A program made the position numbers and the translations under genes. A DNA stretch of 64,000 nt. Origin: Nannochloropsis oceanica (lineage: Eukaryota; Sar; Eustigmatophyceae; Eustigmatales; Monodopsidaceae). Below the pieces are notes generated by a model. It saw only the letters and a program-made list of their open reading frames with translations. It did no database searches and was not told where the DNA came from. The DNA lies in NCBI GenBank assembly GCA_004519485.1, contig CP038111.1, positions 440,001 to 504,000 of the forward strand, written 5' to 3'. Positions 30,798-42,789 of this stretch are shown piece after piece. Every line of letters starts with the position of its first letter. The stretch's first letter is position 1.

Positions 30798-32580
30798 ATG
30801 GCCTACAGCACGAGCAGCGGCAAGAACAACAAAAGAACGGGAATGCAGGTGTATATGGACATTAAGATTGGGCCTCGATTTGCCGGGCGGATGATCTTTG
30901 ATGTGAGTCTGGAACCCTTCCCTCCTTCCTCTCTCCCTCCTCAACTCTCCCCTCCCTCGTCCACCTCCCAGCTGTTGTCCACCCGCCGGCAAAGTTTAGA
31001 AGCCTGGCACGCTTCTATGCAGCAGATTTCCTGCATGATTGCCCCCTCCCCCCCTTCCCCCCCCTGCTACAACATGCACTCACCCCTCCATCGTCCCTCT
31101 CACCCACCCACCTACCCAGCTCTTCACCGACCAGACCCCGCGGACAGCTGAGAACTTTCGTGCCCTCTGCACCGGCGAGCGGGGCGTCAGCCCGTTGTCA
31201 GGCCACCCACTACACTACAAGGGCTCGACCTTTCACCGTGTCATAAAAGGCTTCATGGCGCAAGGAGGGGATTTTACTGCGGGTGATGGGACGGGGGGGG
31301 AGTCCGTGTACGGGTAGGTGGCGAAAAGATGGGGGGCACCGAAGGGAGGAGTGGACCAGAAAGGATGTGCTGTCACACGAAGCTATGGCTTCATAACTTA
31401 TCGCTCATCTTCATCCCCTCCCTCCTTCCCCTCCCTCCCTAACTCCCTCAGCGCCAAGTTCGCCGACGAGAATTTCCATTGCCTGCACACGGAGCGGGGC
31501 ATGCTCTCCATGGCTAATGCAGGACCCAACACCAACGGCAGTCAGTTTTTCCTGACATTTCGGGATACACCCCACTTGGACGGGAAACACGTTGTCTTTG
31601 GCCAGTTGGTGGAGGAAGGAGGAGGAATGGATGTGTTGCGGATGATCGAGGCCGTGGCGACGGATGGAAGGGATAAGCCACGCATGCCTGTTGTGGTGGT
31701 GGAGTGTGGCCAGGTGGGGGAGAGGGTGCGGGATGAGGAGGAGGAAGAGGAAGCAGAGGAGGTGAAGGTAGGTGTGCCTGGGAAGGAAAAGGGGAAGAAG
31801 AAGGGTCAGCAGGAAGAGAACGAGGGAGACGAGGATGATTTCGCGGAGGAGGAAGGGAAAGGACAGCGAGGACGGGCTACGGTACAGGTGGAAGAGGAGG
31901 AGGTGGAGGAGGAGGAAGAGGTGGAAGAGCAGGAAGAAGATATTAGCGGGATGACGGACGCGCAACGTCGTTTGTTCCAACTTAAGTTAAGATTAAACCA
32001 AGGACGCAAATTGAACCGACTGGCCGTTAAGGAAGAGCACGCCCGAAAATCAACGCCTAATTATGAAGCTAAGCTCAGGGCTGAGGAACGGAAAGACTCC
32101 AACGAACGGTGGAGAAGGGAGTTGCTCTCTCGGGGGGTGAAGCCTGAAGAGGCGTACCTCTTTGAGACGGCCGAGGCGGCGGGGAAGAAGATGGCCGCAG
32201 CGGCAAGAAAGGAGAAGGGCAAGGCGGCGTTTGGATGGGACGTGTTCAACCAGGATGCCCTGTATAAAGCTTACAAGAAGAGGCTGGCAAAATTGCCGTC
32301 GGAAGGAGGGGAAGGGAAGAAGAGGGGGGAGGAACCGGATCCCTTGGCTTATGGGACGGCAGGGAAGGGGGATGAGGAGGGCCTTGAGAGATTGGCGGAT
32401 GAGTTGGGGGAGAGGGAGAAGGCACGGAAGAATTTCAGTCGGCGACGGGCTGAGTACGAGGGGGCGGATGTGACCAGCATTAATGAGAGGAATAAGATGT
32501 TCAACAAGAAATTGAAGAGGGCATATGATAAGTACACAGTGGAAACGCGGCAGAATTTGGAGAGGGGGACGGCCTTGTAG
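30798..32580 (+). CDS. Cyclophilin-SYF2 fusion (prolyl isomerase plus spliceosome factor)
   Basis: Three exons join in phase: 30798-30902, 31120-31313 and 31452-32580, giving about 475 aa. Residues about 17-190 are a cyclophilin with active-site [15 protein letters not shown] and [14 protein letters not shown]. The cyclosporin-contacting Trp of CypA is His here ([12 protein letters not shown]), as in Cyp40-type proteins. A Glu-rich linker (about 195-265) follows. From about 265 to the end the protein is a SYF2/p29 domain: [65 protein letters not shown] and the canonical end [11 protein letters not shown]2 is a Prp19/NTC-associated factor of the catalytic spliceosome; several cyclophilins also sit in spliceosomes. 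Part of the cyclophilin, the linker and SYF2 lie in one open exon, so the fusion is not a joining artefact. Confidence 0.9.
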
Positions 32581-33017: not shown

Positions 33018-33790
33018 ATGGCCTCAGAGCTCTACAAAGCCCTCGAAGGGCACGAGATGGTGATCGCTGCTGTATTGGCCTTACTAGCGACGGTCTTCAT
33101 GATTTTCAAGGACAAGAAAGTGACCATGCACGTCAACCCTTGTAAGATTAAAAGGAGAGGTTTCGACTGATGTGTGCGCAGTTAAGTGCGGGGTCTCATG
33201 CTTGTCTTTCACGTATTTCTCACCTTTACAACAGCTATAAAGAAGGATCAGCCCAAGGTAGTAGATGCATTTACCGTGAAGGGTACGTTGCGAAAAGGAC
33301 GGATGCGGCGGGAAGTGTGCATGGATGTGTCTTCCCTGGGTGCTTGCTTGATTTGTGCAGCAGAGCATGCCTTGGACTACATGTTTGAGGCTGGTGAACC
33401 TTCGCTTCACCCATTGGTAACTTTCCCAGCCCACCTTGTAGGAGTGAATCACAGCCTTTGTGTCCCATTCACACTTGTCGTCCTTCAACCTTTTCAACAC
33501 AATCAGACATTGAAGACATGATGAAGAAAGATAAGAACGGGGTGGTAGCCATGTGCCGGTGCTGGCGCAGCAAGACCTTCCCCTTGTGTGATGGCTCACA
33601 CACCGAACACAACAAGAGATGTGGCGATAAGTAAGTTGTTATGGCAGGCCGTTCCCTCCTTCCTCTCTTCCTCCTTCCTTCCCCTTCTCCATTAATCACT
33701 ACACATCTTCATTCCCTCCCTTCAACTTCCGCCCCTCCCCCCTTCCATCCTCCCTACCCTAGCGTTGGGCCCGTGGTGCTCAAAAAGTAG
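33018..33790 (+). CDS. CDGSH iron-sulfur (NEET/CISD) membrane protein
   Basis: Four small exons join in phase: 33018-33141, 33235-33282, 33507-33630 and 33763-33790, giving about 107 aa, the usual size of CISD1/CISD2. An N-terminal helix ([19 protein letters not shown]) anchors the protein. [11 protein letters not shown] opens the soluble part, then [16 protein letters not shown] contains the complete 3-Cys/1-His ligand set of the NEET [2Fe-2S] cluster. It ends VGPVVLKK, as in animal mitoNEET. Family role: redox-sensitive cluster transfer at the outer mitochondrial or ER membrane. The 48-nt exon 2 is easily missed by gene finders. Donors are GTAAGA, GTACGT and GTAAGT. Identity and structure are firm; the membrane is not decided. 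Confidence 0.93.
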
Positions 33791-34150
33791 GGGAAGAGGG
33801 TGTAACTGCCTGAATGAACGAACAGAAAAAAGACGGTGGAGATGGGTAAAGGGAATCCCCCCCCAAAAAAGTGGCAAAAAGAGCAGATGAAGAACGGAGA
33901 GAAAGTCCGCGGTGGGTGGAAAACGAATGCATGATAAAGTCTGATGAGTCTCGTAGACCCTCGATCAAGAAAGCTACAAGGCCAAGAACGAAAAGAAAAA
34001 AAGAAAGAAAGAGAAAGAATGAAGAAGAAGAATCATCAACCAAAGACAAGCAAAGTTTCTCGAAGTTGTCGGCGTTCGCACGTTCTTTCATACCTCGAAT
34101 ATGTTCGCTTCATTGGCATAATTGTACTTTGATTTGTGAAGAAGGGGTTT
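33791..34150. other. Convergent intergenic region
   Basis: The space lies between the facing 3' ends of the CDGSH (plus) and G-patch (minus) genes. It is purine-rich on the plus strand (AAAGAAAGAAAGAG near 34000). No gene is seen. Confidence 0.5.
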
Positions 34151-40731: not shown

Positions 40732-42789
40732 CTAAAGAATATCAACATTGATGATCTTCACGTCCGCGTAGGGCTTATCCTGGTTGTCCACCTTCACCTC
40801 CTGCAACTGACTTACTACGTCCATCCCCTGAACCACGCGCCCGAACACGGTGTGCTTCCCATCCAACCACGGCGTCGGCACCGTAGTGATGAAAAACTGA
40901 CTCCCGTTCGTCCCCGGACCCGCGTTCGCCATCGACACAGTAAACGGACGATCATGCCTCAGGTTCCGATGGAACTCGTCCTCGAACTCGCCCCCCCAAA
41001 TCGACTCTCCCCCCGTCCCGTCCCCCTGTGGGTCCCCTGTCTGGACCATGAACCCCTTAATCACCCGGTGGAACAAGACATTGTCGTAATAACCCTTCCT
41101 GGCCAGGCCCACGAAATTCTCAATCGTCCGCGGACACTCCTCCTTAAACAATTTCAAGTGAATGTCGCCCATAGTGGTCCTCAAAATTGCCGCCTTGCCC
41201 AACTGCTGCTGCGCGTCGTCGACGACAGCTGACGCCACCTTGGCCTCCTCCGCCGTGGGTTTCTCGTTCAATACATCCCTCCCCCCCTCCCCCCCTCCTC
41301 CCCCCTCCCCTTCGCCCCCGTCGCTCGGCATCCTCCTCGTGAACAAATAAAATCTCCTCTTATTAAATGCAGTCGCCACCACTGTCGGATCCGGCTGCAA
41401 CTGCGCACGCATTTCCTCGACACTACTGGCGGTCTTGCCCTTGTTCAATGCCTTAACCAGCTGACTGTCCACTCTAGGGACCCCCTGAAACAAACACACC
41501 CGCAAAAACCGCTCCCCACTCTCAATCTTCCCCAACACCTTCACCACCCGATTCGTCTCCACATTCACAATCTTAATCCCGACCAAACTTGCGTACACCA
41601 AAAAATGACCCGTCTCATCAAATACTGCATTCCCCCTCCCCCCCACCTCCGCCCGTGCCCCCTCTAGCTCATGTTCCACGGCGCTTCGCCTCCCGAAATC
41701 AATCGTGTCCAGCCCCAACATTCCCGTCGCCATAGCCGCCTCCGCAACCTCCATTCCCTCATTATACACCCTCATTAACTTTCCCTTCCTCAAGTCGAAT
41801 ACCCGGATTTGACGATCCTTCCCCACCACCGCCAGTTTTCCCCCATCCTTCGAGACATCCAAACTCGTCGCATAAGTCTTTTTCTTCATCAATTCAAACA
41901 AATCAGAGTCCAACTTACTCTTAAACCCCACTTTTGCCCGCGGGAAGCCATAGCAAGCCTCCTTCCCCTCCCCCTCCAAGTCGGTAGACCAGTACTCCAG
42001 CATGCCTTTCCCATCCCCCGACACCATCAATGCATCCGCGCATGAAAACGCCAACGCCGTCACCGGCGCAGCATGCAAGGATGGCAAGACATGAATAGGC
42101 TCTTGACTCCCATCAGATCGATAGATTCTCACGCAAGGGCTGTCATCATCAGCAACTACCAGCCTCCCATGTGCCTCCCCCGGGCGATGACACCACGCCG
42201 CATGCGTCGGCGCATACTCTACATCCATCATATACGTCAAATCAAACGTCAGGACATCATAAAATTTTACAGCTTTATCCACCCCCGTCGTCGCAAGCCG
42301 CAGTCCATCCGCACTCACGGCCAACCCGCGAACACCCCCCAGATGAGCGTGGTAATGCTTGACAAATTCGAGGCCATCAGGCATCTTTTTCCAGAATTTG
42401 ACATGTCCGTCCTCCGACGCCGTCACCAAAAAGTCCGTCCGTGGGGTAAAGGCACAAAACGTGACGATATCTCGATGCATGTAACTCTTTTCGTACATGT
42501 CCGCATTGGGCAACGCGGCAACAAAAGCCTCCTCGTGGTCGAGCTTCCGCTTCTTCTTCTTCTTCTTGGCCTTCAGTGTAGGGCCAACCTCGTCCTCGTC
42601 CTCGTTCTCTTCATGACCAGCTGCAGCGGCACTGCCAGCAGCCACGGGCACGGGGCCAAAGTCGTCATCGCTGTCTTCGTCGTCGCTCGTGTGGGCGGGG
42701 GGAGGGGGAGGCGGAGGAGGGGCCGGGCCATCGTCCTCGTCGTCGCTGCTGTTTTCGACCCGCTTTTGCTTGCTGCTCCTCCTAGACAT
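40732..42789 (-). CDS. PPWD1: PPWD1/CYP71-type WD40-cyclophilin peptidyl-prolyl isomerase
   Basis: A single exon of about 685 aa. The N terminus has Ser/Asp and Pro-rich blocks and a lysine patch ([14 protein letters not shown]). WD40 repeats occupy about 100-420, starting [20 protein letters not shown] and [11 protein letters not shown]. The cyclophilin domain (about 535-685) contains [46 protein letters not shown] and [12 protein letters not shown], keeping the active-site Arg, Phe, Gln and the cyclosporin-contacting Trp. PPWD1 is a component of the catalytic spliceosome in animals; the Arabidopsis homologue CYP71 acts on chromatin. An insertion of Gly/Glu (about 505-520) interrupts the linker. 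A nuclear location is expected. It is divergent at short distance (about 150 bp) from the zinc-knuckle gene. Confidence 0.95.

Follow-up and report, generated by a model that had tools for sequence, protein, structure and literature searches.

Proteins that carry a cyclophilin and a SYF2 domain in one chain have been known since 2009, when Krücken et al. defined a subfamily of cyclophilins with a SYF2 domain in apicomplexans (TgCyp66.2, BbCyp57.3, PfCyp80.9, PyCyp74 and others) and pointed to a single such protein in each of Tetrahymena, Paramecium and Ostreococcus (PMC2713222; statements on published proteins, here and below, follow the available parts of the papers cited). Tetrahymena CSY1 (EAR98967) was also described as a cyclophilin-SYF2 fusion in the Gene deFuser paper (PMC3143110), and a 2024 review describes PfCyP81 and PvCyP65 as having a region related to SYF2. 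A fused protein has moreover been deposited as a single chain: chain M of PDB entry 8XI2, the C* spliceosome of Chlamydomonas reinhardtii, is 563 aa long, contains both domains and bears the name Syf2. The paper on this complex counts Syf2 as one of six NTR components (PMC11833078). In the available main text 'cyclophilin', 'PPIase' and 'fusion' are each absent (0 occurrences), and 'isomerase' occurs twice, both times with reference to PPIL1 (PMC11833078). The chain M sequence may be simply that of the full predicted protein, with the cyclophilin half perhaps absent from the purified complex; the structure supports the seating of a fused protein at the SYF2 position of the spliceosome, but lends no support to any location or activity of its cyclophilin.

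The gene described here lies in a stretch of 64,000 nucleotides of the Nannochloropsis oceanica genome (contig CP038111.1, positions 440,001 to 504,000 of the forward strand), referred to below as the window, and adds one member to this fusion type. By published description, the apicomplexan fusions (predicted masses of 48.8-80.9 kDa) share its layout, with an N-terminal Cyp_ABH domain, a middle region of low similarity and SYF2 near the C-terminus (PMC2713222). The Tetrahymena CSY1, Paramecium and Ostreococcus tauri relatives, likewise compared through their published descriptions, combine cyclophilin and SYF2 too (PMC3143110, PMC2713222). Compared directly, the whole window fusion matches 8XI2 chain M with an E-value of 9.4e-83, and both halves contribute to the match. 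The two proteins have the same domain order, and in chain M the SYF2 domain is closed by the same NLERGTAL, three residues before the chain end. Their SYF2 parts are 40% identical and their cyclophilins 59% identical.

The earlier note left it open whether the fusion had been described; novelty of the fusion as a kind is unsupported, because the same combination of domains has been published for apicomplexans, ciliates and Ostreococcus and is seen in 8XI2 chain M. Its statement that SYF2 is normally free-standing holds for human SYF2 (a PDB chain of 243 aa) and for rice, and fails for these same fused proteins. Searches of the open-licence literature brought up no report of a cyclophilin-SYF2 fusion in a stramenopile; with the present gene the reported spread of the fusion would extend beyond alveolates and green algae, to a stramenopile. 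A survey of 21 oomycetes lists FKBP, GRX, RRM, WD40 and U-box as the ubiquitous partner domains of cyclophilins; SYF2 has 0 mentions in the available text, and 23 additional domains are detailed in the supplements (PMC7168621). The available part of a dinoflagellate paper reports SYF2 as undetected in Amoebophrya. Searches with the window's SYF2 part against a viral collection, and with an alignment of three SYF2 sequences against viral and prokaryotic collections, returned no relative; they say nothing on the spread among eukaryotes, which such collections are not built to cover. A survey of plant SYF2 genes, reportedly published in Planta in 2019, may bear on green algae.

Structure of the fusion gene and its product

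The features of the gene are collected in Table 1. The spliced product is 475 aa long and ends in NLERGTAL. A scan of splice sites found two choices that keep the frame open, and the model adopted here, with exon 2 ending at 31313 (donor GTAGGT), restores a cyclophilin motif of 14 residues. The exon organization differs from that of the apicomplexan genes, in which, TgCyp66.2 with its six small exons excepted, the cyclophilin lies in a large first exon that also takes in at least the start of SYF2 (PMC2713222), whereas the cyclophilin in the window is distributed over three exons.

Table 1. Coordinates of the cyclophilin-SYF2 gene in the window
Feature	Position	Strand	Basis
Exon 1: start codon, N-terminal cyclophilin segment (aa 1-35)	30798..30902	+	Spliced model; GT donor at 30903
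Intron 1, 217 bases, GT-AG	30903..31119	+	Spliced model
Exon 2: central cyclophilin segment with the 15-residue active-site stretch	31120..31313	+	Spliced model; pocket check
Intron 2, 138 bases, GT-AG	31314..31451	+	Spliced model; the unspliced cyclophilin match crosses one TAG here
Exon 3: last cyclophilin segment, linker, entire SYF2 and stop codon	31452..32580	+	One open frame; spliced model; Pfam
Acidic linker, about aa 190-261	31720..31935	+	45% D+E over aa 189-261
SYF2 part, aa 263-475	31939..32577	+	Pfam SYF2 match itself at aa 328-470

Two Pfam families are found in the product at E<=0.001, Pro_isomerase (PF00160, aa 19-186, 6.5e-48) and SYF2 (PF08231, 2e-26, 93.6 bits against a curated cut-off of 23.5), which bears out the earlier note's view that a single gene encodes both domains in full, with an acidic linker between them. 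The assignment of the N-terminal domain to the ABH-type cyclophilins is based on the PF00160 match and on its PDB neighbours, and not on cd01926, the model that defines the ABH type. Rows of Cyp40, PPIG, PPIH, PPIE, NKTR, PPIB, PPIF and PPIA are included among the best 60 of the 162 PDB matches of the cyclophilin half. The SYF2 domain lies in the same polypeptide and the same open exon, and besides a score above the family cut-off it has the conserved C-terminal block: FNKK and NLERGTA belong to the positions that are unchanged in human and Chlamydomonas SYF2.

The frame of exon 3 (31318-32580), which begins inside intron 2, runs on for 420 codons without meeting a stop between cyclophilin and SYF2, so that the third exon is indeed continuous across the end of the cyclophilin, the linker and SYF2, as had been claimed for it. 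The unbroken run of this frame to the SYF2 stop means that the DNA itself links the two domains. Over the linker (aa 189-261), each of the other two forward frames has two stops. That the linker is open counts by itself as modest evidence, because 5.8% of 20,000 base shuffles of this stretch are open as well, and the case for the join rests on two matched domains in the same frame, one on either side of the linker. As read from the DNA, the gene joining cyclophilin to SYF2 in one polypeptide is real. That the gene model wrongly merges two neighbouring genes is extremely improbable: the join falls within one exon without a stop, and relatives with the same order have been published in other groups, one of them deposited as a single chain (8XI2 M).

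Nine of the ten positions checked in the cyclophilin pocket are kept (R75, F80, M81, Q83, A121, Q131, F133, L142 and H146, numbered as in the fusion), and the cyclophilin half is probably active as an isomerase, judging from its sequence. H141 of the fusion occupies the W121 position, where 8XI2 chain M has W. The numbering by which the pocket positions, W121 included, were placed we take to be that of CypA. The change W121H in cyclophilins is expected to weaken the binding of cyclosporin.

SYF2 and PPIE-like genes in the genome

A second stand-alone SYF2 gene, the finding that the earlier note had named as counting against its reading, was sought in the whole genome (29,264,788 bases, 29.26 Mb, in 32 contigs) with three queries. 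The SYF2 family model gave one match, human SYF2 gave one match at E<=10, and the window's own SYF2 gave two, namely itself and one at E 3.09. None of the three revealed a second stand-alone SYF2 in these searches, which read the genome exon by exon and which a second SYF2 heavily split by introns could escape. No second SYF2 being detected, the fusion gene is therefore probably the SYF2 of this genome. The NTC-related partner SKIP is present. Isy1, another NTC partner, had no match in the genome, and the controls of that search were silent too, so its absence does not follow.

Human nuclear cyclophilins in catalytic spliceosome structures include PPIE (RRM-cyclophilin) and PPIG (cyclophilin with an SR tail) (PMC6315705); unlike the window fusion, they are anchored by domains other than SYF2. 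Searching the genome with the RRM of human PPIE produced 47 matches, of which three on contig C25 (L041, 179500-185000, minus strand) look like exons of one gene with a PPIE-type tail, VWSxDxW. Its spliced product is 134 aa long, ends in a stop, has PPIE as its first PDB match (2.6e-33) and contains only RRM families in Pfam. No cyclophilin was seen in this 5.5-kb locus, the best of 19 queries reaching E 0.068. Only one of the 47 matches, C3:1005320, lies near any of the 22 cyclophilin loci of the genome, within 5 kb and likewise within 20 kb, and the protein encoded there has a cyclophilin followed by an RRM, the order of PPIL4.

These data, with the PPIE-like gene being RRM-only in a genome whose SYF2 is fused, are suggestive of a trade of the cyclophilin domain between PPIE and SYF2. 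The same direction is indicated by the lack of PPIE-like cyclophilins in all the apicomplexan genomes surveyed, as far as the available text goes (PMC2713222), and by the naming of PPIE in the human and not in the Chlamydomonas C* complex in the available part of that paper (PMC11833078), a difference that may reflect only what was resolved in the model. PDB entry 9l5r weakens the idea that the PPIE cyclophilin moved to SYF2. In this entry a chain of 153 aa matches the RRM and has no room for a cyclophilin, and a SYF2 chain of 326 aa stands alongside. The SYF2 chain is absent from the best 60 of the 162 cyclophilin matches and, judged without its first 252 residues, is probably free of cyclophilin. 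The trade is not established, because an RRM-only chain is here paired with a probably free SYF2. Land plants have an RRM-only relative of PPIE together with a free SYF2.

Origin of the cyclophilin half

The 22 cyclophilin loci were obtained by merging 29 genome matches at 5 kb, and the eight that look ABH-like, the fusion included, were used in trees. The rows of L007, L011, L012, L013, L014 and L015 are rough, being assembled from tblastn pieces (L015 was later lengthened), and the row of L020 is without the stretch after HVVFG, possibly an intron or insertion. The tree of 19 cyclophilin domains pairs the window half with its own paralogue L020 (C22:222272-222772), with a support of 95/93, and puts the Chlamydomonas half into a weakly resolved group with 4hy7, 4jjm and 2mc9, which we take to be plant CypA, and with others. 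Among the rows compared, the cyclophilin of 8XI2 chain M is closest to 4hy7 (73%), and it groups with such rows in the tree.

The constraint that both fused halves form one clade has a cost of 24.4 log units with 19 rows (AU p 0.038), 29.4 with 15 rows (AU p 0.009) and 16.7 with 14 rows, L020 left out (AU p 0.054). With L020 allowed inside the clade of the two fused halves, p rises to 0.27 in a comparison with one fused relative and short domains, so that a single fusion whose cyclophilin was later duplicated is compatible with the trees.

The cyclophilin half may be of the PPIG type. Its nearest row, L020 (in L032, C22:219500-225500, minus strand), has a long tail rich in K/E/R/S, for which the Pfam SR-25 score of 19.9 bits lies below the cut-off of 40. 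What speaks against this assignment is that human PPIG, NKTR and 1a33 make up a starred group of their own; a single clade of five rows, these three with the fusion and L020, survives the test (p 0.138). In identity the window cyclophilin reaches 54% with PPIG and 66% with 4jjm and 2mc9.

A broader proposal is that spliceosomes repeatedly anchor an ABH-type cyclophilin next to the NTC and intron-binding proteins but differ in the anchor: in animals the RRM of PPIE, here SYF2, in a genome whose PPIE-like protein is cyclophilin-less. On this proposal the window and Chlamydomonas cyclophilins would derive from different branches and the fusion would have arisen at least twice. We put it forward tentatively, as an unlikely reading. 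Repeated acquisition of the cyclophilin half, if it took place, would be strong evidence of the usefulness of an isomerase at this place in the spliceosome.

Proposed function, alternatives and further genes

We consider it likely that the fusion is the working SYF2 of this genome, joined at its N-terminus through a flexible acidic linker to an ABH-type cyclophilin, and that it carries an isomerase into the catalytic spliceosome. The SYF2 part would dock with NTC-related proteins as it does in other spliceosomes, and the linker would let the cyclophilin reach nearby segments containing proline. The cyclophilin would be delivered at a fixed one-to-one ratio with SYF2, and membership in NTC-containing spliceosomes is assumed by analogy with 8XI2. 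The earlier note's tethering of a prolyl isomerase to such spliceosomes is accepted in this sense, as a natural inference. In human C complexes SYF2 contacts another cyclophilin, PPIL1, on its back face (PMC6315705), and rice OsCYP20-2 binds OsSYF2 in two-hybrid and pull-down experiments (PMC7483694). The human contact and the rice binding lead us to favour a built-in isomerase brought by SYF2: one chain would do here what rice does with two proteins. The correspondence between the rice pair and the single chain supports a direct functional link between cyclophilin and SYF2 in the spliceosome.

Alternatively, the cyclophilin half might be a passenger, with SYF2 working as usual and its appendage neutral, or chaperone-like with no role in the spliceosome. 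The acidic make-up of the linker, which is probably flexible on that ground, would suit such an appendage, as would the very low similarity between the domains of the apicomplexan members (PMC2713222) and the silence of the available Chlamydomonas C* text on the cyclophilin half. Among eight recombinant cyclophilins of P. falciparum, all had chaperone activity and only PfCYP19A and PfCYP19B isomerase activity, in a text that is silent on the SYF2-type member (PMC2963238). Against this stand the retention of nine of the ten pocket positions checked and reports of an identical domain order from alveolates and green algae, and we regard a passenger role as unlikely.

It is unlikely that the gene gives two products, the full fusion and a stand-alone SYF2. 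An ATG at 31951, just ahead of the SYF2 part (within a stretch of 12 residues), would supply the start of the shorter protein; however, no non-coding gap precedes it, exon 3 being one open frame from cyclophilin to SYF2.

Some further genes were noted in the window and elsewhere in the genome. About 8 kb from the fusion, the window contains on the minus strand (40744-42600) a gene with WD40 (3.5e-20) and cyclophilin (Pro_isomerase, 1.1e-53) domains, the architecture of the spliceosomal PPWD1. Two cyclophilin loci somewhere in the genome fall within 9.7 kb of each other in 14% of uniform draws. Four of the 22 cyclophilin loci lie within 152 kb on contig C14 (C14:329263-481184), a clustering noticed post hoc that uniform placement reproduces in 0.45% of 20,000 draws. 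In L037 (C19:311000-315500, about 1973-2944 on the plus strand) a cyclophilin, perhaps plastid-targeted, is preceded by a domain that by eye looks PDZ-type. Exons downstream of the fusion (window 33018-33792, plus strand), also read by eye, contain a CDGSH motif, presumably that of the CISD/mitoNEET iron-sulfur proteins.
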